Below, piece by piece: positions 8,557-42,431 of a DNA stretch of 64,000 nt. The DNA is from 'Nostoc azollae' 0708 (GTDB lineage Bacteria; Cyanobacteriota; Cyanobacteriia; Cyanobacteriales; Nostocaceae): positions 1 through 64,000 of the forward strand of contig NC_014249.1 in assembly GCF_000196515.1 (NCBI RefSeq). The letters run 5' to 3'. A program made the position numbers and the translations under genes. Below the pieces are notes generated by a model. It searched no databases, had not been told where the DNA came from, and saw only the letters and a list, made by a program, of their open reading frames with translations. The number at the start of each line of letters is the position of its first letter. Positions within the stretch are counted from its first letter, which is position 1.

Positions 8557-8643
8557 GGAGAAATATCAAAGTTAAAACAAATCCTTCGTTCTGTTAAAAG
8601 TCGCACCTTGGATTAAATCTTGAAATTATTGTTACTTAATTTT

Positions 8644-21760: not shown

Positions 21761-22276
21761 ATTAAATAGATTGAAAAGGCGAAAACCCCACGTCCAGTTA
21801 GGACAGCGAGGTTTTCCACATACATTCCATCATCGGAATTGGAGCGGGGTATTGGGTTTGCAGCCTAATATTTATATCCCTGTTAGTGATCTTATCTCAA
21901 AAAGTTGAGATGTAAAACCAGAAGAACACTGATTTTACAAGAAAATTAGGATTTACGCAATTACGATGCCTTCGGTGTAACCCTTTGGGGAAACAAGGTC
22001 AAGCTACGAGCAGCGTCTCTTAACGCTAAATCGTTAGCATGGTATGATGCAAATATTAGCTCTGCTAAAGCGCACCGTCTCCAGCAGGAGAAGCAAAGAA
22101 AACGTAGATATCACGGGAAAACAATTTGAAACCCATATTGTTTGTACCCCTTGCGTAAGTCCTAGTAAAAAAGCAATTCAGGAATTATATCTTCTTATCT
22201 TCCTGAGTGTGTGTCTCAAAGATTACTAATATGGGATAGCTCCAATTCCTCCAAAACACTTACTGGAGGATTGGCT
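21761..22276. promoter_or_regulatory. Leader region of the replication gene
   Basis: This intergenic stretch holds an inverted repeat (GAAAACC ... GGTTTTC, about 21781-21818) just after the upstream gene, which could end its transcript. Repeat-like GC-richer sequence lies at about 21960-22045. At the end, GGAGGA (22265-22270) stands 6 bases before ATG 22277, a good ribosome site that decides the start of the replication gene. Iteron-like repeats are not obvious to me. Confidence 0.45.
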
Positions 22277-25200
22277 ATGATCTCACAACAACAATTTCAT
22301 AACGAATTAGAACCACAGCAGCCTGAAGAAAAGAAACAGGGGGCAAGGGAGCAAGGAGCAGGGAGCAGGGAGGACACTATCCTGCGGGAAGCTGGCGCAA
22401 CAGGTGGAGATTCGACACTTCGACCAAGCTCAGTGACCACCCTACCTGGACAAGAACTTTGTAGAAATGGGAGACTCAAACATGAGTTCTGCTCCGCTTT
22501 ACCGCAGGAGGAAGGAGTCATTTCTCCCTGCCCTAGTTCGGCTTACGCTCACGGCAAAAGCCTGCCCACTTCCCCCTACCTCTTCATTAAACAAGATCAA
22601 TTTACACCACAGTTAGAACTAGAGCCTATTCAGAACGACAAAATTAAATTCGCATTTAACGCCACGGGTAAAGATAAAAACTGGGATTTTCGGAAACTAG
22701 CAGCCAACTTCCAAGACAAAAAAGGAACTATTTGGGATGTAGCTAGACATGTAGAAGCAGGACACGCCTTATGTGCTGGGTTACTTGATGGGCAATGGCG
22801 AAGTAAATCTCATATTATTGGTTCTCAGTGGTTGTTACTAGATATTGACAACTCACAAACTTGGTTAGATAAAAATGGTAATCCATTAGATAAAAATGGT
22901 AGACCAATCAAAATTAATAGAGCCTGGGTAGATATTGACGGTAATGTCATTGAAAAATCAGATGGTAGACAAGCCAAGAAAATCTACCAACATCAGCTAA
23001 AATTAGACGAAGCGATAAAACACCCATTCATCAAACAACATTGCGCTTTAATCTACACCACAGCCAGCCATCAACCAAACTGGGACAAATTCCGGTTAGT
23101 ATTCGTACTACCTGAATACGTTCAGGGTGCAGATACAGTAGAAGTATTAACACGCTACTTAATGAAGCATCTACCACATGACCCAGCCTGTAAAGATGCT
23201 TCACGGGTATTTTATGGCAATACTAAAGCCACATTCCCCTTAATTCAACCTCATGTCAGACTACCCCAATCTTGGATAGATAAAGCTGTAAACACTGCTT
23301 ATCAAGAAAAAATTGAGTACGAGAAACGGATAGCAGAAATTACAACACGTCGTCTACAATTCAAAGAACGGGCAAAAGCTAACAACTGGGATATTGATCA
23401 GCTAATTCAACAAGCATTAACTTATATTCCCTCACGTAGTCCTGGTAGTAACAACTATAAAGAGTGTATAGATGTATTAATAGCGCTAAATTCTCATTAT
23501 GATGCTGTAGATGCAGAAATTATTGGTGAACAGTGGAGTCCATCAATTAAGGGAACAACTTGGAATATTCGAGACAAAATTAGGAGTTTTCGCGGTCGTT
23601 CTGGTATATCAATTGGTACGCTATTTCATATTGCTAAACAGTATGGATTCAGGTTTCCAAAAGTTGAAAATACAACTTTTAATAGTAATCACCAAAATAA
23701 CAAGTATAACCACTACCAAATAAAGACATTCAGGGATTACCGACAAGAAGAATTAAACAATTATCAAAAGGAGATATTTAAAGATTACCGCAGAAGAAAC
23801 TTTGGTAATAATTTACACATTACCTTAACAAATGCCAAAATCAGCAAACAAGAATGGCTTGCTAAATATGGTATAAAGAGAGACTTTCAAGAGTTACTGC
23901 AAACTTTAGTCACTGTTACTCATAAAGCCCAACAATTGATAGGTAATATTGTTTACCAACCACAACCAACCATACTTTTACCAACTAATAACCTAGATGT
24001 TGATATCTGGTTTGAACCGAAAACCCGCACCCAGACTTACCTAGATGCGACTCAATCAGGTAAGAAATTTATCTTAGATTTATCACACACTGGTGCTGGA
24101 AAATCTCACACCGTGGGGGAATTTATGCCAGAACAATTTGGAGTCAATACACTTTTCTACGTCAGCAATGAACACCGTAATCCCAGTGTAGCAACTATTG
24201 AACAGTGGACAGACTTACCAGTACGCCACAACGGATTAGTAGCAGATAATAAGAGACTCACACCATTGGGAAACCCACAAATACACTGGCCGCAACGGGG
24301 GGAAGAACCAAACGTTGAGGGAACTTGTCCTCTTACAGATTTTTTTAATGCCCTTGCAACCAAAGGATACAAAAAAGAAACATCCGTAGAAGCCAGCCTT
24401 AACCCCATCTGCAATGGCTGTAAACACAGAGCTAATTGTGCGGGTAGAGATGCTGCTGGTAATGTCCTCCCGAAAGTCAATGGTGCTACCTTCCGACGTG
24501 ATAGAAGGGATGCTCTAGCATCTAAGCGAATTCGTGCTAATATCAACTCTTTACCCCAAGCTACAGATATCACTGGCATGAAGGGAGGTGCTTTTATTGA
24601 CGAAGCTTCTAGACAACTACAACCAGTTGATTTTATTAAAGTTAGTTTACGAGATTTTAACTCCTCGATGATGGAGGTGCAAAGTAAATTACCGACAGTA
24701 TATGACAAAATCAGAGGTTTAGTTCTACCTCTACGGGTACTACTAACTGGTGAAATTCCCCCTGTTGAGGAAACATATCATGGGTATAACGATGAGTTAA
24801 TCAGAGCCTTATTAGGGAAAATCCCTACAGATTTACCAGAAATTATCGCTGAACTGGAAACTATTGCTCCAAATATTGAAAAATTGGTACAAGAGGCTGA
24901 TAGTATTACATTGGATGGGGTTGATAAATGCGATCGCAATTCTTTCAGCAGAAAAACATTGAAGTTTATCCGTAGCCACCTCAGTAAACAAGCTGCTCAA
25001 GAGACTTACAGGAATATTGACAGTTTACCCGTTAGATGGTTGATTCCCCTTCTAGAAGTGATTGGAGACATTCAACCAGGGGCTTTACGAGTTAAGAACA
25101 AACATCTAATTATTGCTACTAAAAATAGCCGTCAAGTTGATATTCTCAAAGCTTTTGACTTTGTTTTCTTGATGGACGCTACTGCTAACCGTGAAAATGT

Positions 25201-26287
25201 CGCTATGCAGTTAGGCATTAATCCAGAGGAAATACTGGTGATTTCGGAAATCCCACCAGATTACAGTAACCTGATTATTCACCAAATCACAGGCTTTGGA
25301 TTACTGAATAAAGACCGAGGTAATAAATTAAAAGAACGAATTGCGGCATTGCGCGAAGAATTAAATCAACGTCATGATGGTAATATTGCTTACATAGACC
25401 ACTTAGTACATAAAAATAAGGGTGATGGACATTGGTTTGCTGATAATCGTGGCAGTAATGCCTATCAAGATAGGCAAGCCATTTGCAGTTTTGGCACTCC
25501 ATATCAGGATATTGGCGCATCAGGGCAAGTTTATATAACTTTAACAGGAGACAAAAATGTGAGTAAAAAAAATAAGGCTTTTCAAGATGTAATTAACCAT
25601 TTGGTTCACACTGAAGTTGTTCAGTGTGCAGGTAGAACTAGAGCGAGTCGTAGGACGGAGGAGGTTACTTTTTATGTAGTTAGTGACAAGAATTTATCCT
25701 ATTTAGCAGATTACTACCCTAATGCTAGGTTTATTAAATCTGATGCTTTTAATATTTGTCCAAGAGCAGGTAATGAGATACAACAGACACATAAGGGTAT
25801 ATTAACAGGTTTTAAGTTGCTGGTAGCAGAAGGGGTGACGGATTGGCAGAAAGTTAGTCAGGGGGCTTTAGCTAAAGCTGCTGGTATTTCTCAATCATGG
25901 TTAAGTCAGGTTGCTAAGAGGTATTTGGGGGGGTGGAATAGCTTTAGAAAATTATTACTACTCCTATATAATTCTCTATATAGGGTTAGTAATAATTCTC
26001 TAGAAGTTTTGACTAAAGAACAGAAGTGGTTTATTGATGAGTATTTACCTTTGTTGCAGCAGGATCGAGAAGCTGGTTATGAATCTGTGGATTTGGTGAT
26101 TGAACATTTGATTATCTTTAGTGAACATCTTGGCTGGCAAGGGTTTTCTAGGGCTGTAAATGCCGCTACGATGGGAATTAAAGCTTTTTTAATAGATTGT
26201 TTGATAGCTGTGTTGCCGAAGGAGGTTCATGATCATGTTAAACACAACTGGGCTTTCTATTTAGCTAAACTAGAACCTGAATACTGA
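22277..26287 (+). CDS. CyRepA1-family plasmid replication protein
   Basis: An intact 1,336-residue protein from ATG 22277 (GGAGGA 6 bases upstream; the frame is open from 22211, but that leader has no ribosome site). It resembles the CyRepA1 family of large cyanobacterial plasmid replication proteins. Residues about 120-330 form the N-terminal catalytic-looking part (LLLDIDNSQ; IYTTASHQPNWDKFRLVFVL, as in primase-polymerase folds). A helicase-like ATPase follows: Walker A GAGKSHT at 606, Walker B FIDEAS near 775, and FLMDATANREN near 967. A Cys cluster (NPICNGCKHRANCAG) lies between Walker A and B. The C-terminus holds a small HTH (GALAKAAGISQSWLSQVAKR). Residues about 18-103 are repeat-derived filler. 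It likely starts replication of this plasmid. Family naming is from memory; the motifs are seen. Confidence 0.85.
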   Translation: MISQQQFHNELEPQQPEEKKQGAREQGAGSREDTILREAGATGGDSTLRPSSVTTLPGQELCRNGRLKHEFCSALPQEEGVISPCPSSAYAHGKSLPTSPYLFIKQDQFTPQLELEPIQNDKIKFAFNATGKDKNWDFRKLAANFQDKKGTIWDVARHVEAGHALCAGLLDGQWRSKSHIIGSQWLLLDIDNSQTWLDKNGNPLDKNGRPIKINRAWVDIDGNVIEKSDGRQAKKIYQHQLKLDEAIKHPFIKQHCALIYTTASHQPNWDKFRLVFVLPEYVQGADTVEVLTRYLMKHLPHDPACKDASRVFYGNTKATFPLIQPHVRLPQSWIDKAVNTAYQEKIEYEKRIAEITTRRLQFKERAKANNWDIDQLIQQALTYIPSRSPGSNNYKECIDVLIALNSHYDAVDAEIIGEQWSPSIKGTTWNIRDKIRSFRGRSGISIGTLFHIAKQYGFRFPKVENTTFNSNHQNNKYNHYQIKTFRDYRQEELNNYQKEIFKDYRRRNFGNNLHITLTNAKISKQEWLAKYGIKRDFQELLQTLVTVTHKAQQLIGNIVYQPQPTILLPTNNLDVDIWFEPKTRTQTYLDATQSGKKFILDLSHTGAGKSHTVGEFMPEQFGVNTLFYVSNEHRNPSVATIEQWTDLPVRHNGLVADNKRLTPLGNPQIHWPQRGEEPNVEGTCPLTDFFNALATKGYKKETSVEASLNPICNGCKHRANCAGRDAAGNVLPKVNGATFRRDRRDALASKRIRANINSLPQATDITGMKGGAFIDEASRQLQPVDFIKVSLRDFNSSMMEVQSKLPTVYDKIRGLVLPLRVLLTGEIPPVEETYHGYNDELIRALLGKIPTDLPEIIAELETIAPNIEKLVQEADSITLDGVDKCDRNSFSRKTLKFIRSHLSKQAAQETYRNIDSLPVRWLIPLLEVIGDIQPGALRVKNKHLIIATKNSRQVDILKAFDFVFLMDATANRENVAMQLGINPEEILVISEIPPDYSNLIIHQITGFGLLNKDRGNKLKERIAALREELNQRHDGNIAYIDHLVHKNKGDGHWFADNRGSNAYQDRQAICSFGTPYQDIGASGQVYITLTGDKNVSKKNKAFQDVINHLVHTEVVQCAGRTRASRRTEEVTFYVVSDKNLSYLADYYPNARFIKSDAFNICPRAGNEIQQTHKGILTGFKLLVAEGVTDWQKVSQGALAKAAGISQSWLSQVAKRYLGGWNSFRKLLLLLYNSLYRVSNNSLEVLTKEQKWFIDEYLPLLQQDREAGYESVDLVIEHLIIFSEHLGWQGFSRAVNAATMGIKAFLIDCLIAVLPKEVHDHVKHNWAFYLAKLEPEY
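22332..22584 (+). repeat. Interspersed repeat inserted in frame in the rep gene
   Basis: The DNA GGGAGCAAGGAGCAGGGAG and the following blocks (GATTCGACACTTCGACC; CGCAGGAGGAAGGAGTC; TACGCTCACGGCAAAAGCC) have the look of Nostoc extragenic repeats (short tandem heptamer-like repeats plus palindromic modules). Here they are translated as Gly/Ser/Pro/Cys-rich sequence without a break. The flanks read as normal replication protein on both sides. The total length keeps the reading frame. Confidence 0.65.
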
Positions 26288-27617: not shown

Positions 27618-27839
27618 CTCTACATTTTTATTTTACTTCTTAAAAGACTTTAAAAGTTCCTGCCATAAAAAAAGATGTTTAACAATTAAATAGGAGTTCT
27701 ATGTAACGTCTCTCTATCCAGGAATCAACCATATTTTTATAAAAAAGTCTATTACTCTGCTAACTCTTTGTCCTCCTTAACCAATTCATTAATTTGATTA
27801 TACTCCATTAACGCTATCAGTTTAAAGTATATAAGTATT

Positions 27840-29048
27840 ATTTTATTTTCAGAATTAAAATTTGCTCGTCTTCCACTGTAATTTGTAGTGAAGTGGTAAG
27901 TTCATCTGATTGATAGACTATAATCTCTCCATCTTCACTATTTTCTATTAAACTTTCTTCGCTTATTAACCTTGCTATCATCAAAGGAATAGTGTACAAT
28001 ATAATGTCTTCCTCATATATTTCTGTTTAGTTTTCTTCCTATTTATTCACCGCAGCTATAATTGAATTATTATTAATTTGGTTGAAATTATCTTGCTGAT
28101 TTTTTATTGTACTCACCTTTAACTCATCTGATAATATAACTGGTAATTTACGAATAAACTCTGGATTTTCTACCTGGACTTTACTTGGCTCAAATGTTAT
28201 TACAACAGGTTCTTACACAGTCCTTCCAGAGTCGAGATTAGCAATAATAGATGCCAGTGTTTTAATAGCATTATTTGTTGTTCAATGCTTACAGTTTCTA
28301 TGAATTGAATTGATTCTAATTCATTAAAATCAACATATTTGAGAAGTTTGCTTAATATTCTATATATAAATAAGCAGTTTTAGCAGGGGAAATATTAGGG
28401 GATATTCTACTTAATTCTTCAGTGAGTATAGTTAAAGGACTACTTATCATGAATTTATGCCAACCAATTGAACAAAAACTAAATTGATTAAATATTAAAC
28501 TTGAAGATACTGATTTTTGACTGATCTTAAGGATTGATTAATATCATTGTTGATTTCTTCAGATATATCAATAAGTTCACCCGATATTTGACTCTGCTTA
28601 ATTTGTCCTAATTTAATATCCAGTCACACAGTTCTATGTTTTTCTATATTTATTAAATCTTTATCGGAGTTCGTGATTAAGATTAAGTATTCTTTACCTT
28701 GTACTATAACTTCTCCATTATCTTCAGAAATACCGAATACATCCCCATTTTTTGAGTAATTTCTGTGATTTGATTGATAGAATGTAATCCTTTAAAATTA
28801 TTATTTATTGCTAAGACTACTTTTTCTGTTAATTCTGTGCCTGATTTAAATTCACTACCAATCTTTGCAATTCGCTGAATATATTCTGCTGACTTATCTA
28901 ACTTTTGTGCAGTCAAATACCATGTTCTTAATTTTTTCAATGGTGTTTCTTTATTCTTAATAGTTTTATCAGCAACTACTTCCTTTTGAATATTTTTAGA
29001 TGAGGAAATGCCTGTAGAGTTAGGCAACTTTATCTCATGAGATGACAC
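27840..29048 (-). pseudogene. Unknown minus-strand gene (relic)
   Basis: From ATG 29048 a 114-codon piece reads MSSHEIKLPNSTGISSSKNI, then KKLRTWYLTAQKLDKSAEYI and VLAINNNFKGLHSINQITEI. Behind stops and shifts come SQISGELIDISEEINNDINQ, TLASIIANLDSGRTV, VVITFEPSKVQVENPEFIRK and DEQILILKIK at the end. It is an acidic, helix-rich soluble protein of about 400 residues that I cannot assign. It is directly downstream of the SLOG-like gene. Confidence 0.45.
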
Positions 29049-29071
29049 ACAGATGATTGCTATCTAGGTAC

Positions 29072-29380
29072 TTAGAAAGATACTTCTGGAGCTGTTGGTG
29101 TAATAGGTTGTGGTTCTTGGTTACTAAGCGTAGTATTTTGTTCTAGCTTGGCTGTGTGTGTATATCCATTACTCACAAATTCTAACTTATATCCCTGTGT
29201 CTCTAAATATTGTTTTACCAGTTGGTCAATACCAGCAGTATTACCTACTATAAAAGAACTTTTGGAAGCGATCACTCTATCAATTAGTAGTACATAATGT
29301 TTATCAAAAGTTTCCAAAATTTCTTCTTGAGTAACACCCCTCCAAGGACCAGAACCTGAAACCATAATTAATTGTGTCAT
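29072..29380 (-). CDS. SLOG-like nucleotide-binding small protein
   Basis: An open 102-residue frame: MTQLIMVSGSGPWRGVTQEE, then YVLLIDRVIASKSSFIVGNT and AGIDQLVKQYLETQGYKLEF. The GSG start, the glycine-rich VGNTAGIDQLVKQYL and the closing hydrophobic strand fit the Rossmann-like SLOG superfamily (YpsA/DprA-like), which binds nucleotides or derived ligands. It is intact, in contrast to both neighbours. It lies downstream of a NADAR-like gene end on the same strand, which would suit a shared NAD+/ADP-ribose theme; that link is inference. Confidence 0.6.
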   Translation of the reverse strand: MTQLIMVSGSGPWRGVTQEEILETFDKHYVLLIDRVIASKSSFIVGNTAGIDQLVKQYLETQGYKLEFVSNGYTHTAKLEQNTTLSNQEPQPITPTAPEVSF

Positions 29381-29465
29381 TAGCTGAGTACACCCCTGTA
29401 TTTCCCCCCTCTAAACTTCCTGATAGTTACGGGTGCTAGAGGGTGTTTTAGGTGGTGCAGATCAC

Positions 29466-32400
29466 ATACCAATGAATTCAGTAGCTACTTTAGCCATTGC
29501 TATATCTTTTTGCATATGTGTTGCTACAGTATCGTTCAGGGGTTGCAGATTAGTAAGTGGGTTAGAAGTTTTAGGAGAATTAATAAGTACCTGTCCAGGA
29601 TTTTTGGCTTGAGGTGTGGATAAAGTAGTAGTTCTTGCTACAGATTACTTTGTTGGTAACTTTGAGGATACTTGGGTAATAGTCTGCGAATTTTCTAATA
29701 CTTTAGAATATCCTTTAATCAAAGCGGGAATAAACGGAGATTCTTTACCCTTGCCTTCTCAGTAGTTATCTTTGGTAGAAGTGACATAGTGAGTACAGTT
29801 TTCCAACTATTTCACTCCTCCCCTTTGGGTGATAGCTGTAAACAACTTGGAGTGCTGTTCTAACTTGGCTTGAATGATTTCTGCCATTAACTGTATTCGT
29901 GGTTCTCCCAAAGGTACTGTAGTTTTGTAGTGTTGGTAAGCTTGTTCAGCAGAGACAAAAGGCACTCCAGCAGGTTTATCTTGGGCATAAGTTTCTGGTC
30001 CATATTTATCGGCGGGTACTGCGATGTTATCATGGAAAGATACAGGATACTCCCCTTGAATTGTGCCTAATTCCTTGGCTTTAATAGTAGGATTAGTTAT
30101 AGCTACATCTAGAGGCTGAGAACTTCTCGAACCGATATTCACCGGAGAAGTAATAACAGATGTCAGCCGTATGGCTGTAGATAAAGGTGGTGGTATAGCA
30201 GGTGTAACCGATGACTGTTCAAGTTTTGCGCTGGCGAAAGGTATTATTTTTCTGTTCATATAATCTCCCAGTGCTTCTATATTCAGTCCCCACACTTCCG
30301 GTTTATCCCTAAAGGTAGTAAGTTCTCGACTACTATGTTTTTCCATTACTGCCCACTGTTACTGATATGCTTGATCTGCAATCATTTCTGGGCTGATGCG
30401 GTATTGTTTGCCTACTCGAAAGGCAACTTGTTGAGAACCTCCAGTAGGAATATTGGAATCCCTACTGGAGGCGATGGTATAAATTCTACTTTAGGCGATT
30501 GCGCGGAGTGCACTGCCGGAGGTAATCACACTATTAGACGTACTGGAAGCGATAGTGAAGCGCTCCGTAGGAATCCCAGAATGGCCGGCCACCTATAGCG
30601 TTTGTCAAAGACGTGCTGGAGGTAATCGCAATATCCCCCTCTTTAAATCCATAAGCTTTGTACGGTTCATAAGTTCTAGTTGTATGATATCTACCATATC
30701 CCTGCATAGCACCAATAGTAGTGCTGATGGGTAAAGGGTTGGGTTCATTGTGTATTTCCAGAGGAAACATCATTTGCACACGTTTACCCGAAATTACAAC
30801 ATCCTTTTGTTCAGGTTTTAAGACAATGGTGCTATTAGCAGGTAATACTTGATATACTGCGGATATAGTTTGCAGATTTTTAGGAACTACAATTGTTCGC
30901 TGTAGTGGATTGTCATTTGATAAATTGGGTGTAACTATAACAGGTATTGTAGGTGTAGCTAATTCCTGAACTTCATCGAGTCTTTCCTCTATTATATGTG
31001 GTCTATTGGGAAGGGCATTAAGATATTGATTGTAAGCACTATTTTTTCTGTCAGCACTTAATGCTTCTTCGAGCTTTGCCTTGAAAGCATCAAAGTCATT
31101 AGATGAAATTGTACTACTAACCAAGTAAATTATATAAATACCTTTTCGTTCTTAGTGATACATCTTGTGGAGATAAAACATTAAATTGAATACTTTTAGA
31201 TTTAAAGCAATTCTGAACTAATTCTATTTTGTGGTTGTCTAGTACTATTCCTATTAATCCCAGTACCTTATCTTCTTGACTAGTAAACAATCTTGTTGGA
31301 AGTTCTTGGATTTTCTCTAGTAATAGTCCACTTTTTTCAACTATCACCTCTTGCTTTGTTACCGTAGTTGGTTGGGAATTATCTTTAAAAGCTTGATTCC
31401 TTTGTCCAAATTTGGGGATGTTTTATTGTGCTGGGTTCAATGTTAAGCAAACTGTGAGAAAAACTACTTTCTAATGTAAAGTGTACGGAACTTTATTGAC
31501 CATGTTTAAGTATTTCTAAATTTTGTAGTACTTCCTTATATTTTTTATAGTGAAGAACTTCTAATAATTCTCTATTGAGAAAAATGGCATTCCTATTTTT
31601 ACTGCTTGGTACTTCTAAACTAATACCTTTATATTCTCCTCCCGTAAGAACTTGATCTTTCAACTGATAAACATTAATTGTGTTAGCTTTTAATAAATTG
31701 CTATGAGGTGATTCAGCAATAATAGAACTACCTTCATTTGGACTATCACTAATACATTTTAATTTAAATTAAAGCAGATTACCATTAGCTAAATAATTTA
31801 TTTTTCTTAATTCTTGAATCGAATCATTATCCAATTCTCCTAATGTTTGACCAGCCAATTTAATTTTAGCTGTGTCAATAGGAACTGCTATGCTACCAAT
31901 AGCGACTGTAACTTGTTCATTATTGAAAGTCTTACCTGTATGAGAAAATTTGCTAATTTCTCTAAAATTAATGTTGATTAGTGGTTGCGATGGTAAATTA
32001 ATAGTTGCCGTAGCTGTATAAGATTCACCTGGTTTAATATATGCTTGTGCCTGAGTATCAATTGGTAATTGGCCTGTTCTTTGTTCCAAAGCAGCAAATT
32101 CTTTGTATTGTTTATTATTGTCTTTGATAAATACCAATCTAGAATTATGTCTTTCATGTCCTGGAGGATAGCAACTGACTTGTATTTTTATCGAATAATT
32201 ATCTTGGGGATTCCATTTCCTACCAACAACATTATCTCCTTTCCTACCAATTCTTAATGCCTTGATTCGTGAAGATTTTAACTTCTCTAATCGCTTAATT
32301 ATTCCCTTGCCAAAGGTTGCAAATACAAAATTAGATTCCTTCTTACGGGAGCTTAAACCTCAATTATTTCCTTGTTTTAATTCATCTTATTGAGAAATTG

Positions 32401-35100
32401 ATATACTCCATGTTACGGCTACAATTTCTAATTTTTGGTCTTCAGTAATTAAATTATATGAATTTTTAGAAATAGCATAAGCTTCTTGGAATAGTAATTT
32501 GATTTGACTTTCTCTCAATTTATTTTTAAGTTCAACTAATCTTGCTCTCTGAGTTATTATTCCTGGTTTAAGGAATATAGGCAATTACACGTTGTTGACT
32601 AAGTATTCCCAGTTTTGAATATTTAGGTCCTCCATTTTCCGTTTCTCTATCAATTTGTTATACTTTTAATAAAGTATGGGGATTCTGCAAAGACTAATAT
32701 TTTTTCTGGAATTTCTTCTAAATAAACGTTAAGTGTAGAACCTTTCTAAATTCCTGGATGTTCCTAGCGAGTAAGATTAGTGATGGTAATTTCTGTACCA
32801 TTGTTTGTTTTGACAATAGCATAAGGTCCTTGTTCAGTTCCTAGACATTTATTTAATCTAGTAGGTACATTGAATTTATCATCAAATTCCTGTTTGGCTA
32901 ATATATCTTGAAAGTTTTGTTGGGGAGTAAATTCTACACCTTTAAATAAATTTTGAAATTGGATAATAGGATGTAATTCTAAATGAGATATTTCGGAATA
33001 TTTATTAACTTGCTTAATAAGTAACTTGACTGGTGAATAGCCAGTAGTTATAATACTTTCACTCACGTAGGCAGATGAAGATTTTTTATCTTTTATATGA
33101 TTAACATCTCGATAAAGATAACGTTTATTTTCAGCTATTACCTCCATATCAATCAGGTTTTTTGGCACTTTTGAATAAATCCACCGCAATTTGATGGTGG
33201 AAATAAGCTGCTTTAATTACTTGTCGGTACATATTGCGATCAATTACTAGTGTTTATAGTATCACTTGAGAATTTACATTTTGAACAGATACAAGTTTGA
33301 GAAATTCCTGCATTTCTTTTCTGTATTCTTTCCTTATGACTTGAGGATGGTTTTGATTATTTTCTAAATTGACTAATTTTTATAATGACTACCAATTTGG
33401 TCTAAATTTTTTATTGTTGAGAATCCTATAACTTATTAAAGTTTTAATTTCTGACTCTAAAGCCTTTAGTCCTGTCACATGATTACTGATAATAATAACG
33501 CTAATACCACCACTCATATGAATAGCAATCTTTTTACATAGAAGGTGGTACACAACCTTCTATGTAAAAAGATTGCTATTTCAGTTTGACTGTGGGACCA
33601 TAAGCATTTTAAGGTAGGTTTCTGTATTCAGCTTCGGCGGTAAAATTATGATACTTACTGGCTAATTCTATACCAATATATTTACCATTAAAATTCCGAT
33701 CTTGACGTTCTGCTTCGGTTTCTATGGAGTCTAATTCTTTGGTTTTAATACCTTGTAATTTAGGAATTCAAGCTAAGAGGCTACCATCTGGCCCTAAGTA
33801 ATCTTTAATGTCTTTGTTGATGGAAACATATAAACTATTAGTATTGAGGAAGTGGGAGCAAAGGTTAAGAATTTTTTCGCCCTCAGCTATTCAAGGCACA
33901 GAAATTTCATCATTTTTAAGTTCTCTAGAGGTAATAATCATTCCCCAGTCCAAGGTTAGGAAACGACCAAGGGTAATATCCCGCTATTCATTTTGTACAA
34001 AGCAGCTAAGTTCTTGTTTAACTTTCTCAGTTTCTAGAAGTTAGTTATGGATAAGTAAGTCTGCGTTGATAATTTTGTACATTAACAAGTCATCTTGTTC
34101 AGATTTACTATTTTCCTCCGATAAATTATTTGTATATGAATTTCTATCTATTTTAGGGTCATCAGTAGATAATTCCGCTGCTTCATTTAGTAATTATTCA
34201 GTTTTTTGTTGTTTAATAAAAGCTTTGCGTTCTTCGTATTTCTCACAATATAACTGTGCTACTTTCCTTGGGTCTTTCTAGATTTCTGCGAGTTCTTGTG
34301 CTTACTTTTCTAATTCTTTGGCAAAGTCTTTGATACCTTGTGGGAAAGAAGCCAGTAGTTGAGAAATGGCAGTCTTACCTTTTTGAGACTGTGATTTTCC
34401 AGCTAACCAAATATTTTGATTATATAAACCCGGTTTGATTTCGGTTTTAATTGGTGTAGATGGGTTATTTTTATTCGTTCCATTGAAGCTAGATATGGGG
34501 GTAGTGAGGTCGATTTTACGTAAATCTTTTTGCCAAGAAGGCTCCTCTAAATTCTGCGGATGCAATGTTCTTTTGCCAAATCTCTCTTTGGTATCTTCTC
34601 TATCACTTACTTTTCAACCAAAGCGGTGCTGTATTAGATGATAACTTTTATCTTTTTATTCCTTTGTATTACTTAATTTGTCGTATAGCTCAGTTGAAAT
34701 CTTTCCGTAGCAATCACCTAGTAACTTCCAGGCATCTTCATTTTTAAGAAATTCTCCACTTCCTCCAGTAGCATAATATACTAGTAAAATGTTTAGCTTT
34801 CCGTGGATAGTATTTGTAAGAATCTAGAACAATAGAAACGTAAGCACTATGATCTTTACGATCTGGACAGAGTTTTCAATTACTTCCAGACATTCTGGTG
34901 AAACGTATAGTAGCTTAGTTCTAAATAACAATAGTAATATCTCACCATTTGGGTGGTTATTTGATTCTTCTGCTGATGTATATTCATCTATTGGACCGAA
35001 GGAAAAATCTCTTTCTGGTCAAAAGAACTCCAAAAGTGTATTATCTGATTTTTTAGTTCAAAGTGAATTGTTATTCTGGAGATTACCATCTGTGTAAATC
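29466..35100 (-). pseudogene. Giant unknown plasmid gene with NADAR-like C-terminus (relic)
   Basis: Minus-strand pieces join end to end for about 5.6 kb (roughly 1,850 codons). From the start: NEDAWKLLGDCYGKI, NIWLAGKSQSQKGKTAISQL, DPRKVAQLYCEKYEERKAFI, ELDSIETEAERQDRNFNGKY, MEVIAENKRYLYRD, ESYTATATINLPSQPLININ, LTGGEYKGISLEVPSSKNRN, and GYGRYHTTRTYEPYKAYGFK (30534-31124). The end (29807-30346 and on) has VPFVSAEQAYQHYKTTVPLG, MAEIIQAKLEQH, LENCTHYVTSTKDNY and EGKGKESPFIPALIKGYSKV, as in NADAR/YbiA-like ADP-ribose N-glycosidases. Two stops there replace Trp. Dozens of other stops and shifts occur. A short palindromic repeat splits it at about 30440-30610. Continuity as one gene is my reading; the N-terminal function is unknown. 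Confidence 0.55.
30440..30610. repeat. Palindromic repeat cluster inside the giant gene
   Basis: The stretch holds several GCGATTGC/GGAGG-type modules: TACTGGAGGCGATGG, GGCGATTGCGCGGAGTGCAC, GCCGGAGGTAATCAC, CGTACTGGAAGCGATAG, GACGTGCTGGAGGTAATCGC. The flanking protein reads ...EGDIAI before and ...VAFRVGKQYRISPEM after it, so the cluster is an insertion that the ORF 30534-31124 runs into and translates as an alien tail. Confidence 0.65.
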
Positions 35101-35229
35101 CACTTTTTTAGTCGAGTATGAAAGTGTTTAAATTCTAGAGTTATGAGTTTATAATTGATTTTTAATTGATAGTTAATTTGTAGGATTTTTCAATATATCC
35201 AGGATTAAAATCTCAGCTAAATATCACTA

Positions 35230-35710
35230 AGAATAAGGTCAATGAAGACAGTTTCTTGCAAGAAGAGTATTATCAGCAATTAACTGATAATTGTATGGTT
35301 TCCCATCTTATTCAGCAACAGGCTATAACATTGAGGAAAAATTATGATCAGTTCAAAAATTTGGTTAAACTAAGCCTGAACATTGGATAAATTTCACTGC
35401 TTATGACTTTTTCACAGAAGAAGAGAAGCAGCATTTTGATAGTGATGCTTTACTGAAACCGGAGTATGTGAAATATGCTTATGGTATTGATGTTAGCATT
35501 CAATCACTGGAAGAAATGGAACGTTGTAAAGAAATTGGAGTTGACAATTAAAATAATTTGTCTGCTCGATATGCTGGACAGGGTATCAATTTTAGTGAAT
35601 AGCAGATGCAAGCAAGAATTATTGATAACAGAACCTATTTACAATGCAGGGAGTAGATGGAAATAGATTTGCGTAATTTTGAGGATGTTGATACTTTACT
35701 ATTTGATTAA
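35230..35710 (+). pseudogene. Unknown gene fragment
   Basis: Plus-strand pieces with good coding character: EYYQQLTDNCMVSHLIQQQA, HWINFTAYDFFTEEEKQHFD, KPEYVKYAYGIDVSIQSLEE, then LSARYAGQGINFSE and TYLQCREXMEIDLRNFEDVD before TAA at 35708. Frames switch once near 35370 and stops occur at 35552, 35600 and 35656. I do not recognise the family. It lies between the minus-strand giant gene and the relaxase. Confidence 0.45.
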
Positions 35711-35904
35711 GACACACGATATTGAAACAAAGCGAAATTAGTAACTTAGATATCATAGATAACTACTAATAGTTCCCTCAAATTAGATTCTAAAAGTTAC
35801 TTCAGTGATGGTGCTAGTGAAAGAAGTAGAATTGGAGGTAGGTTTTATTTTGTGTTTTATATCATTTGATATAAATGTGAAGCATTGTTGATAGAAACGT
35901 AAAT

Positions 35905-37400
35905 TTACGCCAATTCTCCTTGATTTTCTGGTTCTTGATGCTGGTTGTGATTTAGTAGTAACTCTTTGAATCTTTCCAGTATTATTAAATCTTGGGGCGT
36001 CAAATCTTTATCTTTGCTCTCAGGACTATTACGGAGGGTAATTTCTGCAATTTCTTCTCCACTTTTTTTGCGTCGCAATTTGAGAATGTCTCTTTCTAGT
36101 TCAAGGTCGTAGTATTTTCCTGAATATGTTTCAGGTTGTCCTGCCTGTTACCAGAATAGATGGATAATATGGCTGATGCTGTTATGCTAGTGTAGTTTTT
36201 TGGTTTAGTACCCTGCTACTTTGTGATTAGGGACGGTATTATATCACTTACCAAACTGGAAGTTTGTCCATCTCCGTCTACAGAAATTGCACTTCTAGCT
36301 TCACTGTCAAGAGCATTTTTTGAAGACTTTCCTGAAGCGATTGCGCTTCGTGTAATTCCTGCGGGGTGCTTTACCATGGTTTGATTAGTGTCGTTGATAT
36401 TTGTATTAACTAATGTTATTTCGTCTTCTGGGGATAATCCTGCTATCATTGTTTCGATAGTAGTTTCTGGCATTTCAACCTGTTTTGTACCCCGATAGGA
36501 ATGTATTACAGGTAAGTCTCGTTCCGGCTTATAAGATACACCTCGTTTTCTCTGAGTCCCTGGAAAGCTATATGTTGAACCTAATTTATAGCCACTAACT
36601 TTGACATCATTTAACTCGAAAGCGATCGCTTCTTTAAACAACCCCACAGTATTAAATTGAGGATAAACTACAACACATTTTTGCCGAAGTCTTTGTATCA
36701 ATTGGGTAACAGTTGGTTGATCTCTCGTAGCTGCATCAATGATGTCTGCTAATAGTTGGGTAATAGGTGGTTGATTGGAAGAGTGACTTTTCTGTTTTTC
36801 GGTTTGGGCGTGACGGTTACTAACAGTTGTTTCAAGCCCATTCTCCTTTTGGACTGTTTGAGTTATTCTGTCACTCCTACAAGATACAGCTACCAAGCCG
36901 TACTTTTTTTCCAATTGTCGTAATATTATCTCACTGCGGCGATAATCCCAGGAATCTGGTACAACCGAGCTATTTATACGAATACGAGAAGTAATAATTA
37001 TGAATATGTGTGTGTTTGGTGTTATGGTGACGGGAAATAACGTACTGTTTTTGATTTAATTCCTCTCCTAAGAATTTCGTGGACTTGAGCTAATGCTGGG
37101 CAATTTCTCTGTATTGCTCATCCTCTAAATGTTCATGATATTCCCCTTTGTTATGGCATACATCATGGTGACGAATACAAAGAATGGCATGAGCGCCAGC
37201 ATGTTGGAGATTAGGTCAAAATCTTCTGGCTGCACCAAATTCTTTAGTTAGTTGTATGGGTGTAGTTCCACTCATATTGCTGTTGATCATGGTTGTTTTC
37301 TTCTTACCCAGCAGATATTCTAAGGTGGAGCGAAAGCTGTGATTTTTTAACTGCTTGCCAATCAATGGGACTTCTTTCAGCGATGTCTACTAAAGGTTCT
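35905..37400 (-). pseudogene. Relaxase (MobP/VirD2-like) relic
   Basis: Read from about 37400: LIGKQLKNHSFRSTLEYLLG, then HAGAHAILCIRHHDVCHNKG, EEQYREIAQH-type helix, NQKQYVISRHHNTKHTHIHI and RINSSVVPDSWDYRRSEIIL. The H-x-x-x-x-H-x-H-I-H core is the metal-binding motif III of relaxases, the enzymes that nick oriT for plasmid transfer. A 232-codon open piece (36216-36914) follows with TQLLADIIDAATRDQPTVTQ and KPERDLPVIHSYRGTK. A clean C-terminal run (35905-36150) ends GELA. TAG/TGA stops at the motif side and in the middle, plus frameshifts, inactivate it. mobC lies just upstream. Confidence 0.8.
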
Positions 37401-37459
37401 CTAGGTGGGGACTGAATACTTGATTGTATTAGAGATTTTAGAAAATGTGGTAAGTTTTA

Positions 37460-37520
37460 GAGCGATAGCGTTCGCGGAGTGTCCCGGAGGGAAATAGCAC
37501 TACTGCAAGCAGTTCGCCTA
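37460..37520 (+). repeat. Palindromic interspersed repeat, copy 1
   Basis: GCGATAGCGTTCGCGGAG, GTCCCGGAGGGAAATAGCAC and TACTGCAAGCAGTTCGCC. The reverse complement of 49435-49495 matches it over about 55 bases with a small gap (GGAGG, TAGCACT, CTGCAAGCAGTTC in the same order). Confidence 0.65.
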
Positions 37521-37556
37521 CTGTATTTTGATCCGTGCAATTCCCTTCGTGGCTCA

Positions 37557-38020
37557 TCAAATATTTTCTTCTAGTTCATTACCTGTCACTCCACACTCCA
37601 GCAGTTGCATTTGTATTTCCTTAATGGATGTACGCAGGGATTCTACTAAGTTTTGTAGCTGCTCCGGATCAATATTTACGGCTTGTCCTATTTTCGCTGT
37701 GTTAGTTGCTGCTGTAGCTATTTGGTTAAGATTTATCCCAATAGTATTTAGTTCTGTGTACAACTTCTAATTTAACTGAGGGAGAGGGGCCATTCTACAA
37801 CACGCCGTCGAAATCTAGCACGTCGAATAAATTTTGTGATACTCACTCTACCTTATTTTGCTTTTTGTTTAAGTTGCTCGTATTCATCAGTAGCAAAACG
37901 AACTGAAAGCTTAATTTTTCTGATAACTCCAGGTGAAGTAGTTCTGAAGATTTTGCTTTTACTAATTTTACCCTGTTCAAGTATACTTTTACCATAATGC
38001 TTAGATCAGGTCTTACCAAA
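37557..38020 (-). pseudogene. mobC: MobC-type relaxosome accessory protein (relic)
   Basis: Reading from about 38010: GKSILEQGKISKSKIFRTTS, then IKLSVRFATDEYEQLKQKAK, a TAA stop, and GRVSITKFIRRARFRRRVVE. This is the ribbon-helix-helix MobC domain that binds oriT and helps the relaxase nick. After a frameshift near 37780 an open 68-codon piece reads LNTIGINLNQIATAATNT and IDPEQLQNLVESLRTSIKEI, the conserved MobC C-terminal block. It lies upstream of the relaxase relic in the usual mob order. Confidence 0.8.
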
Positions 38021-38595
38021 ATAAAAATATATCAAAAATTATATCTCGCTTATATTATCTGTTACTTTTCCATTTAGTGTTAGTTATTGCAATCTAGTTA
38101 TTATCCTCTATAAATTGGTGTCCTAATCAGTAACAAACCCTTTGTGGCTTGTACTGGTGATTATGTAGCTATTAATTCTTTATCCACAAACAGAAGTAAT
38201 ATATGGCAAGCCAGAAAATTTTAGACAAGAGACTGAGATTTCAATTTTGAGAAAATACCCTAGATGGAATGTTGTTGAATTATTTGGTCAACCATTCTCA
38301 TGAAAATATTGATGAATTAATATGATAAGCAATACGAATATATTTTATGCTATTAGCATATATCAATGTAGATGGAGTTAATAATAACTTCTTAGGTTAA
38401 GTAAGTTTATCATTATTGATGGATTGTTTAAATTATTGGGATTATATTCAAATAAAGTTAAATTTTAATTTAACCTTAGCTAAAATAGTTTTTTAAGGGA
38501 TGGACAGTTTTAGTACTATTTTTATTACACACGATTCTGTAATAAAATAGAATTTTGATATTTATCAAAACTGAGTGGAATAATTAGTTACTAAT
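38021..38595. other. Gene-free region upstream of mobC
   Basis: No gene is seen here. It lies between divergent mobC (minus) and the ParM-like operon (plus), where an oriT and partition promoters/centromere would be expected. I find only imperfect short inverted repeats and cannot place a nic site. Confidence 0.4.
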
Positions 38596-38727
38596 AATAT
38601 CACAGTTACTCAATCTCCAGAAGCTACGCAATATGATGACTTTTGGGACGAAGATGTAGAGGTACAGATGGAATTAACCAATGAACAAAAGGCTGTTAGA
38701 CAGGATATTCGTTTTTTATTTGGATAA
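38596..38727 (+). other. Possible small acidic peptide gene
   Basis: A clean stretch of about 43 codons reads NNITVTQSPEATQYDDFWDE, then DVEVQMELTNEQKAVRQDIR, and ends with TAA at 38725. No ATG is evident. It sits 106 bp upstream of the ParM-like gene and could be a small upstream partner or a remnant. Confidence 0.3.
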
Positions 38728-38833
38728 ACAAACACTATAACTAAATGATTTAGTTACTTCCTGAATTTATACTTAATAAAATTAAATCACGAAGAATATA
38801 TTTTACTTAATTGGTGGAAAAGTGAGTAATAAA

Positions 38834-39963
38834 ATGACTAAAATTACATACAGTGTAACCCCGGATTTAATGCTGGCTATAAATTTAGGTGGTTCTCAAA
38901 CTAAAGCAATTGGAAGTGTATCTTAAAAAGTGACTTTTCTACTTTGCCGTGTATGGAACCAGAAATAGCAGATGTATGAGTTGCGTCACTAGAAAAGTAG
39001 GAAAAAACTAAATCACTTGAAACAGATCCAGATAATACCTGCTGGGTGAGTATTAGTGAGGAATATTATACTATTGGTCTCCTAGCGAGAAATAAATATA
39101 GTGGTAATTCCTTACTCAAGCATTTGAAAAAAGAAAATGCATTACAGAAAATCTGTGGTGTTTTGTGGGTGGTTAGTCAAAAATTGAAACTGATGAATAA
39201 ATTCACAGTTTTATTGGCTGTTTTATTACCACCTTCCGAATATCAAGATAAGGAGCATTTTGAATCTAAATTAAAACAGGTACTAAAATATTTTAATACA
39301 CCTACTAGTGAAATTAGAATCAAATTGATAGACTTAAATGTTGTTCCTGAAGGAGTTGGTATTTATCTCCATAGACGTACTATTTGGGAACAAATATTTA
39401 GATGTCATAGATGTTGGATCATTTTGTTAGACGTTGTAGTGGTTTATTGAAAGACGATCCACATCTGATAGCTGCGATGGTAGCAGCAGGATCTGAATGT
39501 AAGTCGGAAGTTTTAGCTACTTTATCATGACGTAAAAGTGAAGCTGAGGTTTTAGCACAAGGCCAAGATATCTCTTTTACCCTCAAACTTAGTCGGGATG
39601 AATATTTTTGGGCATTAGTACGTTAGTTATTACAACAAATACCCTATAATATTAATGAACTGGTTTTATGTAGTCGTACTGTCGAGTATCGTAGGTCAGA
39701 ATTAGAGGCATATTACAGTAACGTGAAATTGATTTGGAATGGTAGTGGAGAAATTCCCCCAGTACTTGATAAAGTAGGAATCGGTATGTGATTAGCAGAT
39801 GTATGGACTTTGTATCACGTATTGTTTATTAGTACAGATTTAAGTACTAAAAATAGTAATACTACGACTAATAATTCTGGTTCTACTGGTTCAGAGAACA
39901 AGGTTGTTAACCTGCCTTCACCAAAGCCAAATGGCTTTTTGGAAATGCCAGATAGACTTTAAA
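38834..39963 (+). pseudogene. ParM/StbA-like actin-type segregation protein (relic)
   Basis: From ATG 38834: MTKITYSVTPDLMLAINLGG and SQTKAIG, the phosphate-1 loop of actin-like ATPases (I-N-L-G-G-S-Q-T-K, where D-x-G is usual, so the key Asp reads Asn). A 134-codon piece (39046-39450) holds YYTIGLLARNKYSGNSLLKH and KFTVLLAVLLPPSEYQDKEH. Later pieces are KSEAEVLAQGQDISFTLKLS and GSGEIPPVLDKVGIG, with the end LPSPKPNGFLEMPDRL. ParM-type filaments push plasmid copies apart. Stops and shifts at 38924, 38979, 39448, 39527, 39625 and 39788 break the frame. Confidence 0.7.
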
Positions 39964-40029
39964 TTTTTTAATAAAGTCGAATTTCTGTAGCTGGTAGTTT
40001 ATTGTGATGATTAAACCTTTAAGAATTAG

Positions 40030-40073
40030 GATAGGCGATTTCCTTTGGCAGTGTGCTACGTACAATCGCCTGA
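40030..40073. repeat. Inverted-repeat element
   Basis: AGGCGAT ... ATCGCCT arms enclose about 26 bases (TTCCTTTGGCAGTGTGCTACG). It belongs to the GCGATTGC-flanked palindromic repeats seen at 30494, 37460, 49435 and 58816. Confidence 0.5.
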
Positions 40074-40189
40074 GACAACTCCTCCTTTTTTTCTGTTATT
40101 TCTCTACTGAATTTGGTCTATTTTATAACCATTATTCTAGATCAGTTATTCCTGAGAAATCTAAAAGTGCTTCCCTAGTAGTCCTAACT

Positions 40190-41060
40190 GTTTAACAGTT
40201 AGTTGATGAATGTACTCAATTAAGGTGGATGTAATTACACCAAATCGCTGATTAAGTTGTTGTATAATTAACTGTTCTTCACCTATTAGTTCACCATGTT
40301 CCATGGCCAGTTTTTCTGTTGGGCCAACTAGGGGCATTTTCTTTCCTCCTCCAAACGTTTAATTTTAGTGATTAATCCTTCTTGTAAAAGCTGAGGTAAA
40401 CTCATCATTTTATCAATGATTTTGAATAGCTTAACTATTTGTTCTTTTGTTAATCCTCATTCGTAAAGTCCTCTAATTAACTTCCATTTCCACATCTCCC
40501 ATTCAGTAAGATTAGTGGTTATACTTTTAGTCTTCAAGTGCACTATCGTAGTGATACTAAAGGGATTGTTACTAGATTCTAATTCATTTCAACACAATTC
40601 GTAATCAAGGAGTTTAGTAGTAAAAATCTAACGTGATCTTCACTATTTCCAATAGAATAATGATAGAATTAGCTCGCCAATTTGGTCTATAATCACCTGA
40701 AATTGCTAGACTAAGTACCTTGTTGTAGTAAAGATCGAAAGCGCGGTAGCGGTAGATAAACATTCGTTCTGTAAAATTAACCTTATAATGACTTTGGACT
40801 TCAAGGTGAATCAAAATCCATACCTGTTGTTTATCTAATAACCAAACTTGATAAAGTTTATTTGCAATCCGTTTTTCTGTTTCTGATGAAGCTGTAATCT
40901 CTTGTAGTTCTTGTCTAGAGGTTGAGGGGATTTCTTCCAATCAATTAATTCATAGATTTGACGAAAGAAAAAGAATAATAAGCGTTTAAAACATTCATTT
41001 AATGCTTCTTTCTATGATTCATCATAGTTAGCTGTTAATTCAGTCTTTTTTTAGTAGATC
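40190..41060 (-). pseudogene. Rpn-family PD-(D/E)XK nuclease (relic)
   Basis: Minus-strand pieces in order: an N-terminal FRQIYELIDWKKSPQPLDKN, the open piece 40614-40940 with ASSETEKRIANKLYQVWLLD, VWILIHLEVQSHYKVNFTER, MFIYRYRAFDLYYNKVLSLA, and after stops MPLVGPTEKLAMEHGELIGE and LNQRFGVITSTLIEYIHQLT (a DUF4351-type tail). The I-H-L-E-V-Q-S strand is the catalytic E-x-Q of Rpn/RpnA recombination-promoting nucleases, once annotated as transposases. Multiple stops and shifts are present. Confidence 0.8.
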
Positions 41061-41109
41061 AGCATGATTAGAAAAAATATTATATACAGATTCTGCTACG
41101 AGTATATTT

Positions 41110-41660
41110 TCCTTTTACAATGGATATGATTTGTAAAATGCCTGAACTTTCAAGATTATTGAAGATAATTTCACAGCATTAGCAAATAAAACAATTATCC
41201 CAGTTTTTATAAAGTCTAGGGTATCTATATGAGTATAGGAGTATAGAATACTTTTTCTTACTGCCCAGGATAGATAGATTAGAAAAACTACAAATATTAA
41301 TAATTCAAGTAGAGTTAAGGCTTTAAAAACTGTGAATACTATAATACCTATCCAGGTAATAAAAATAATTTTAATAATGAGTATAATATTTAATTTTGGT
41401 TTTTCTGGTGGTGCTCCTATCTTGCCAAGTGATGTAGTATTACTTTTATTTTTATAAGTAGCAGCAGACTTTGAACCAATAGAATCTCTGACTTTGCTAG
41501 TGCTATGAGTGATAAATCTTGTAAATTATTCTTAATTTAGGAGAGTTATGAGTTTGGCATTTAGGGCAAATGATTAGCATAGTTATCTAGATGATATTTA
41601 CAGCAGTTTATATTTTGATGAATTGCATTTCTAGGTTGGTTTTCAATCATTAAGTGGTAT
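41110..41660 (-). pseudogene. Unknown two-TM protein (relic)
   Basis: A stop-free run without an ATG reads DSIGSKSAATYKNKSNTTSL, GKIGAPPEKPKLN, then IILIIKIIFITWIGIIVFTV and LTLLELLIFVVFLIYLSWAV, two membrane spans, and SYTHIDTLDFIKTGIIVLFA. Upstream, MIENQPRNAIHQNINCCKYH with broken C-x-x-C positions suggests an N-terminal zinc ribbon. I do not recognise the family. Confidence 0.4.
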
Positions 41661-41838
41661 GAACTAGACTTGATAATGCTATAAATTTATTCAAAGTGTA
41701 TGATTTCATCTCTGGAGTAACTTTAATTTTTAAATATGCGAATTTAATAGTTCCTATTATAGACATAATAAATTTCACTTTAAATCAAAAGAACTCTTTT
41801 TCCTGGCTTTATGAGCTTATAGTAACTCATTTATTTAG

Positions 41839-41879
41839 CGAAAGAAAGAAGCCTAATTTTTTAGCCTCCTTTCTTTCCC
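41839..41879 (+). terminator. Hairpin at the end of a plus-strand frame
   Basis: GAAAGAAAGAAGCCT and AGCCTCCTTTCTTTC pair almost perfectly around a T-rich loop. It could act as an intrinsic terminator in either direction. Confidence 0.45.
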
Positions 41880-42049
41880 TGTAATAATAAAGTCTGCTAA
41901 GGATTGACACCTAAACCATAGGTTAAGATTTAAAAATGTTATGCTTTGGGTTTTTGGATTTTTTACATATTTTCCAAAGATGTTTTAGATAGTGAGTGAT
42001 TATCTTTGCTTATTCACGCAGCAGCTTTCTGAGGTGATTTGCGTTTGCG

Positions 42050-42431
42050 TGTAGAATAATCTTTGGACTAGTGGATGTATTATTTTTTCTGGTCTTCCTA
42101 AGTGTCTTGGTTATGATTTAATTTCTTTTGCAGGTAGTAACAGTTTTAGTGTAGGAAGAGGAAAGGGAATAGTTTCACTTTTCATGGTTTTTTAAGATGA
42201 CATATCATTTTCTAGTTCCATTGTCTAAGGGGTAGATAATGTTTGATAATTAATTAGTTTATTAACTCTAGGAATTGACATTGATCTGTTGTCTGGTGTA
42301 ACTGATGCTATAGCTTGTATTAATTGAGAAACTCCAGCAATAAAATCTATAAATATTACTACAGAGAAAGTAACACAGATAGCTTCAATCATTAAAGTAA
42401 GTACATATTGCATAATTATCTCCTTAAACAC
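42050..42431 (-). pseudogene. Small membrane-anchored protein (relic)
   Basis: A 68-codon frame from 42431 has one hydrophobic stretch (VLTLMIEAICVTFSVVIFID, continuing FIAGVSQL). After a TAG at 42222 the same frame continues TMELENDMSS, and further on sits the basic PRHLGRPEKIIHPLV. No family is recognised. Confidence 0.35.

Follow-up and report, generated by a model that had tools for sequence, protein, structure and literature searches.

A decayed giant plasmid gene in 'Nostoc azollae' 0708 whose intact relatives probably encode single-chain two-barrel RNA polymerases with exchangeable tail modules

The first 64,000 nucleotides of contig NC_014249.1 of the cyanobacterium 'Nostoc azollae' 0708 (assembly GCF_000196515.1; hereafter the window, meaning this whole stretch, with which contig 2 of the genome starts) carry, at 28498-35144 on the reverse strand, the full-length pseudogene of a giant plasmid protein, which is the sole copy in that genome. 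Ten tblastn segments, with nine frame changes and 34 in-frame stops (counted once), cover 2183 of the 2186 residues of the intact protein WP_015364293.1 from plasmid pANACY.02 of Anabaena cylindrica; 1584 of the 2183 aligned residues are identical, the individual segments ranging from 65 to 83% in amino acids. An initial annotation of this DNA had joined the pieces into one giant gene of about 1,850 codons, and while the joining is borne out, the match to the intact protein rejecting a chance assembly, the gene spans 28498-35144 and some 2,186 codons instead. Rebuilding the ancestral protein across the frame breaks against the intact plasmid homologue recovers one gene nearly whole, and the AEQAYQHYK, CTHYVT and KESPFI motifs noted before are found in the C-terminal part of that homologue. 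The intact SLOG gene that had been placed next to it at 29072-29410, on the other hand, belongs to the pseudogene itself, as a part that has stayed open: the SLOG segment is enclosed by single intact open reading frames (ORFs) of 2186 residues in pANACY.02 and 2170 residues in a Sphaerospermopsis plasmid, and comparably long ORFs occur in many genomes.

All four core motifs are degenerate in the window copy (DFDGD has become NFNGK, RSP CSH, KGT KRT and SSFKG SSFNG), and the decayed gene should yield no working protein. The most likely product of its intact relatives, which in the giant type of the family measure about 1,400-3,300 residues, is a single-chain two-barrel RNA polymerase of the clan that includes YonO of the SPbeta prophage and the eukaryotic RNA-dependent RNA polymerases (RdRP). 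The N-terminal 1,500 residues had previously seemed to match nothing; motifs and profile matches now point to an RNA-polymerase-like core. The parts of the pseudogene are as follows.

28498..35144, reverse strand: full-length pseudogene, matched to the intact WP_015364293.1 by tblastn
34479..34718, reverse strand: first-barrel-like motif region, degenerate (weak profile match to the N-terminal half of YonO); motif positions of the intact homologue are GDCYGQIS at 34718-34695, GKGTLRP at 34577-34557 and SSFKG at 34493-34479
33681..33863, reverse strand: second-barrel-like motifs (region where YonO and beta-prime match the family profile); RSP position at 33863-33849, DFDGD position (NFNGK in the window) at 33695-33681
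33167..33499, reverse strand: positions of the VGxxNN and VDxxKS motifs of the intact homologue, in the order of similar motifs in YonO
30236..30782, reverse strand: ASCH-like (PUA-like) module, predicted from an AlphaFold model of the C-terminus of the relative L075 and its VIA-align match to YqfB
29708..30097, reverse strand: NADAR-like module (hhalign 30% to cyanobacterial NADAR)
29138..29398, reverse strand: SLOG-like module, formerly read as a separate gene, within the same ORF in intact homologues
28498..28946, reverse strand: conserved C-terminal domain without a Pfam family, present in 53 of 54 tails, in some of them partially

The conservation of the core was read from BLAST-selected ORFs of 80 loci, the best 80 of 185 relatives that had been fetched by two peptide patterns, with no selection on the DFDGD-type motif. 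RSP is present in 80/80 and D(F/Y)DGD in 79/80 of these ORFs, so that the D-x-D-G-D loop, which binds metal in the two-barrel clan, is preceded by R-x-P, and S(S/A)FKG is found in 79/79; KGT occurs in 78/79, a count that is biased because one of the fetch patterns ends in KGTL. Many of the loci are closely related, and the counts therefore do not represent independent events. An alignment of distant plasmid homologues likewise shows K-G-T, S-x-x-K-G, R-S/Y-P and D-F/Y-D-G-D. In the 39-row family alignment used for profile comparisons, from which a Leptolyngbya member, the window copy, L136 and short ORFs were omitted, the invariance of DFDGD is circular, since its rows were chosen by the pattern D[FYLWI]DGD. 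Three pairs of intact genes are under purifying selection, with ratios of nonsynonymous to synonymous substitution (dN/dS) of 0.18-0.21 over the entire gene; the core is lower in all three, at 0.14-0.17.

The relationship to known polymerases is drawn from sequence comparison, which makes a strong case for the second barrel and a suggestive one for the first. A 57-row profile of the giant type only reaches WP_015217609.1, the family member of pANACY.01 (L017, 1123 residues), at E 3.7e-28, and other family types down to E 5.9e-16, without hitting any reversed decoy; neither YonO nor beta-prime was matched by it. The pANACY.01 protein itself passes the cut-off of the Pfam family RdRP, PF05183 (E 3.5e-6, 26.4 bits against 23.8, residues 306-578). 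PF05183 is not listed for three further distant members (L013, L011 and L015), nor for P0001, P0002, P0003 and P0006 at E up to 1; across cyanobacterial genomes it rises above its cut-off in 8/281, at nine places, each overlapping a family-profile match. By hhalign, the 39-row family alignment matches YonO at 90.8% (E 1.2e-6; a 10-row alignment gives 92%) and cyanobacterial beta-prime at 57.3% (E 1e-4), with R-x-P to DFDGD aligned in both cases. Five control alignments scored 0.1-1.0%, sixty column shuffles each reached at most 0.3% for YonO and 0.8% for beta-prime, and reversed profiles gave 0.0% and 0.6%, respectively. With DFDGD masked, the YonO alignment keeps the same start and a score of 36, against a shuffle maximum of 21.8 obtained with unmasked YonO.

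A number of results weigh against a polymerase of this clan. The same masking lowers the hhalign value to 8.7% for YonO and 0.1% for beta-prime; an alignment restricted to close relatives (A5) gives just 0.2% against YonO; and the segment after DFDGD alone gives 0.3%, its best 13 columns being the VGxxxN motif. The match of the N-terminal barrel is weak, at 5.6% for the N-terminal half and 11.6% for the KGT/SSFKG block, where KG and S-x-x-K align with YonO at a score of 22.7 against a shuffle maximum of 15.4. YonO and beta-prime, known relatives, score a mere 0.9% against each other, which also means that the hhalign test is insensitive and misses true relatives. A YonO profile found nothing significant in 291 cyanobacterial genomes, and the giant type has no significant Pfam, PHROG or NCBIfam match, the scans of these collections and of PADLOC returning only weak matches at E 0.06 or worse; a hidden Markov model search of solved structures gave a best E of 0.21, to an unrelated protein. 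The AlphaFold model of core residues 1-1150, built from 57 sequences, is poor (predicted local distance difference test, pLDDT, 58.6), with most of the second-barrel region below 50, and the fold search made with it carries no information (best E 0.01, with no match reaching 0.001); on this model the double-psi barrels, and with them the fold of the core, stay putative. Finally, the Leptolyngbya boryana member (L016:5137-7911, 924 residues) has lost both the Asp triad and R-S-P, and is presumably a natural inactive relative. As for existing labels, the plasmid records listed call the protein hypothetical and once ribonuclease H; the latter, an NCBI label of a Gloeothece member, is unsupported by Pfam on its C-terminal half.

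Among known systems, YonO is likewise a single chain in which, as read by eye, KG, S-x-x-K, R-S-P, DxDGD, G-x-x-x-N and D-x-x-K follow in the same order; it differs in being phage-borne and 839 residues long, whereas the cyanobacterial family is mostly plasmid-borne, lies near relaxase genes and bears cassette tails. YonO has DNA-dependent RNA polymerase activity, for which its Asp triad is required, and YonO-like proteins have already been mentioned for cyanobacterial main genomes (PMC5467207). The likeness to beta-prime extends from R-x-P to the DFDGD loop (31% identity over 52 columns); nothing beyond those columns aligns, and the match depends on DFDGD. For the eukaryotic RdRP the likeness lies in the distant family member that passes the Pfam cut-off, the giant type itself being below detection. 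The family's arrangement of GDCxGxIS, Q(F)R and KGT resembles RdRP motifs. The polymerases of yeast killer plasmids, which are linear cytoplasmic elements, are likewise plasmid-encoded and of the same clan (PMC7824862, PMC6211774), although these are eukaryotic, linear and two-subunit systems, likened here by description and not by sequence. The family also has the character of the polyvalent proteins, that is, of large multidomain proteins of mobile elements: very large plasmid proteins that join polymerase-like, helicase, RNA-binding-like and nucleotide-processing modules. The main text of the founding paper on those proteins treats primases, with N4-type RNA polymerases in phages only, and does not contain the terms DPBB (double-psi beta-barrel) and NADAR (PMC5512222). 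P0001 has no Pfam match at all, and hence none to the LPD models of polyvalent proteins, which are part of Pfam.

The family profile, whose ten rows already hold several family types, matched 64/291 cyanobacterial genomes and 32/131 genera, the genome of the window included. Matches on plasmid records number 77, at least one of which (pC052_F) concerns the ASCH-like part only; 36 of these plasmids are typed as conjugative, 14 as mobilizable and 27 as non-mobilizable, and that only 36/77 are typed as conjugative counts against the overall reading given below. A search of 50,697 phage records with P0003 gave no match, and viral contigs scanned by peptide pattern held no relatives. Linkage was counted for 50 ORFs from the 80 loci, each starting at least 9 kb into its locus with the motif in place; the reference relaxases were drawn from the family's own plasmids, a match was counted anywhere in the locus, and no random-position baseline was used. 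On these terms a relaxase is found in 45/50 loci (MobV in 22, MobF in 11, MOBP in 11, MOBP together with MobV in one; none in five) and ParM in 44/50, so that the relaxase type varies while the giant gene persists. A divergent neighbour of about 176 residues, for which no significant Pfam family was found, lies within 250 bases in 67 of the 73 loci with enough upstream DNA (in L004, at 8466-8996 on the reverse strand, 48 bases separate its start from the giant gene), and the six loci that lack it are L088-L093, a larger type related to Trichormus. Downstream, several loci carry a gene with TPR repeats (e.g., L008:14776-15552), and loci of the window's own subgroup have a different gene instead (261 residues in pANACY.02). 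In genomes of genus g45 of family f33 (e.g., G144:C2, G219:C49 and G213:C67), two paralogues of about 1480-1640 and about 790 residues share a contig at a distance of some 4-9 kb. One family member of 894 residues (G178 contig 1, 4107738-4108847; matched over positions 16-427 of the 692 in the profile) is probably chromosomal, since that contig belongs to a two-contig genome of 6 Mb.

The tail was compared across 54 closed ORFs, five further closed ORFs ending before it. Between a conserved middle domain and the conserved C-terminal domain lies a slot that takes up optional modules in the order ASCH-like, NADAR-like and SLOG-like; NADAR is present in 14 tails, SLOG in 16 and the ASCH-like module in 22, plus one fragment. 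By model, the last of these adopts an ASCH/PUA-like fold: the C-terminus of L075 (AlphaFold mean pLDDT 65.7) aligns with YqfB at a VIA-align Z of 8.7 over 95 residues at 2.8 A, all of the top 12 rows (Z 6.5-8.7) cover model residues 26-170, and 7/12 of their titles name YqfB or ASCH, the best Foldseek E being only 0.012, at a probability of 1.00. A separate 293-residue gene (L019:5521-6402), which directly precedes a phage terminase gene on the Nostoc plasmid pC052_F, shares 42% identity over 131 residues with the ASCH-like part.

The NADAR-like C-terminus that had been proposed is plausible by distant profile comparison, at 30% (E 5.5e-4, 41 columns) against cyanobacterial NADAR proteins with shuffles at or below 1.6%, but it lies below Pfam detection: P0001 and P0002 had no match to PF08719 at E up to 1, and the NADAR-like place of the window is not among the three PF08719 matches in its own genome. 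A SLOG-like segment in the tail is likewise plausible, at 11.7% against YAcAr (shuffles at or below 2.3%), a target of four rows one of which is unrelated, while the comparison with cpYpsA gives 0.0%; the segment is a module of the same protein and not a neighbouring gene. In the L075 model the NADAR region is of moderate confidence, and no NADAR or SLOG row appears among the fold matches listed, which is uninformative because one domain filled the list; Rossmann-type rows (methyltransferases) appear in the VIA-align listing at Z of about 5. The two modules do co-occur, although as parts of one protein and not as a gene pair: 13 of the 14 NADAR tails also carry a SLOG-like module, and the fourteenth (L093:9620-19612, Hassallia, 3331 residues) has a Pfam cpYpsA SLOG domain and a PIF1-like helicase. 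L099, which lies outside the 54, similarly has cpYpsA SLOG in its tail. A search with the NADAR-SLOG stretch matched 8/291 genomes, along its entire length in the window copy and in G205, and by the SLOG half only in the other six; six of the eight places fall in ORFs of 1635-2217 residues that also match the family profile, and one in a 591-residue ORF of G158 on a contig that carries family genes as well. Elsewhere in the 'Nostoc azollae' 0708 genome, contig 1 has a split NADAR gene at 4517212-4517747 (matched twice, in frames that differ, with a TAG in one of the matches) and an intact one at 3263809-3264237.

Taken as a whole, the giant type is best read as a plasmid RNA polymerase with a tail that would process RNA or ADP-ribose. 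The N-terminal ~700 residues would make up the two-barrel catalytic core, which would synthesise RNA on DNA; as far as the sequence goes, the template may be double-stranded DNA, an incoming single strand or RNA. Because the gene sits in the transfer and partition region, the enzyme is inferred to serve the plasmid itself, which it may transcribe or prime, perhaps right after the plasmid has reached a new cell, and the tail modules would protect or tune the RNA-synthesis step against host defences, the ASCH-like module by binding RNA and the NADAR- and SLOG-like ones by processing ADP-ribose or nucleotides, with a helicase added in one member. There are analogies for such a core and tail: phage N4 delivers an RNA polymerase of its own into the host, conjugative elements transmit primases along with their DNA (PMC5512222), and phages are believed to use NADAR and SLOG domains against ADP-ribose signals (PMC9503650). 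That cyanobacterial conjugative plasmids have a single-chain polymerase of ancient type as a constant component of their mobility region, acting on the incoming plasmid ahead of host transcription, its exchangeable tail disarming the defences of each new host that are based on ADP-ribose or RNA, is a tentative extension that may well prove wrong.

A different enzyme, namely a primase or DNA-synthesis enzyme of two-barrel fold that primes the single strand arriving by conjugation and does not transcribe genes, is unlikely to be what the core represents. Relaxase genes of three types (MobV, MobF and MOBP) nearby, the PIF1-like helicase of one member and the primases often carried by polyvalent proteins of conjugative elements (PMC5512222) would suit such an enzyme; the motif, however, is DFDGD with an upstream R-x-P, the profile matches are to RNA polymerases, and the replicon of the window already has an open ORF of 1372 residues with a PriCT_2 domain. 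It is less probable still that the family consists of structural or regulatory proteins that descend from an ancient polymerase and have lost catalysis, as the failure of AlphaFold to yield a clear barrel and the motif-less Leptolyngbya member might suggest, given that a non-enzyme need not keep the three Asp of D(F/Y)DGD, which are retained in 79/80 ORFs. The role envisaged in the initial annotation, an NAD+/ADP-ribose system, here taken as a counter-defence or toxin-antitoxin protein for which the N-terminal part would be a scaffold, appears very improbable. The closest relatives do carry NADAR-like and SLOG-like modules, the search with the module pair reached eight of 291 genomes (both halves in two), and phage SLOG-NADAR fusions exist (PMC9503650, PMC7824862), in which both module types share one polypeptide; in the present family, however, they are the cargo of a polymerase-like core, NADAR is absent from 40/54 tails, the core motifs are near-invariant and core dN/dS is the lower in every pair. 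With NADAR and SLOG as optional cargo (14/54 and 16/54 tails) on a polymerase-like core, such a system fits the tail of a minority and not the gene. Several unrelated neighbouring genes that merely appear joined, as the many frames of the window copy might suggest, are practically out of the question, being refuted by the single intact ORFs of 2186 and 2170 residues and the similar long ORFs of many genomes.

Single-chain two-barrel polymerases are known already, as are clan members on yeast killer plasmids, in phages and in transposons (PMC7824862). The plasmid-borne multidomain form was not encountered in the literature covered, which did not extend to Ruprich-Robert and Thuriaux 2010 or to Iyer and Aravind 2012. 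The abstract of Iyer and Aravind 2012 reportedly mentions homologues from bacterial selfish elements, which may include some of these proteins. If active, the enzymes would be bacterial-plasmid RNA polymerases of the clan that underlies cellular RNA polymerase as well as the eukaryotic polymerases of RNA interference; mobility-linked bacterial plasmids would join the known carriers of that clan and supply many new sequences for the question of RNA polymerase origin; and plasmids may supply transcription of their own in the manner of phage N4. The cassette tail, for its part, would constitute a natural panel of defence-related modules on one core.

The surroundings of the pseudogene in the window share its decay. 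From 27.7 to 43.0 kb the DNA is mostly a disrupted version of the pANACY.02 backbone, to which it is 79-88% identical, and in the mobility and partition backbone at 27744-43046 stops or frame breaks were found by tblastn in 7/7 genes tested, among which are the following.

27755..28450, reverse strand: decayed downstream gene, with a homologue of 261 residues in pANACY.02 (tblastn)
35205..35722, forward strand: decayed divergent neighbour, a gene of 176 residues in pANACY.02 (tblastn)
35911..37380, reverse strand: decayed MOBP relaxase gene (tblastn; Pfam Relaxase on the intact homologue)
37560..37930, reverse strand: decayed CopG-like gene (tblastn)
38203..39959, forward strand: decayed homologues of the pANACY.02 ParM gene and of the adjoining gene, ParR-like by position (tblastn)

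No open ORF of the window is longer than the putative Rep of 1372 residues at 22169-26287, which bears the primase-associated PriCT_2 domain, and the 64 kb contain just six stop-to-stop ORFs of more than 250 residues, a relaxase fragment among them.

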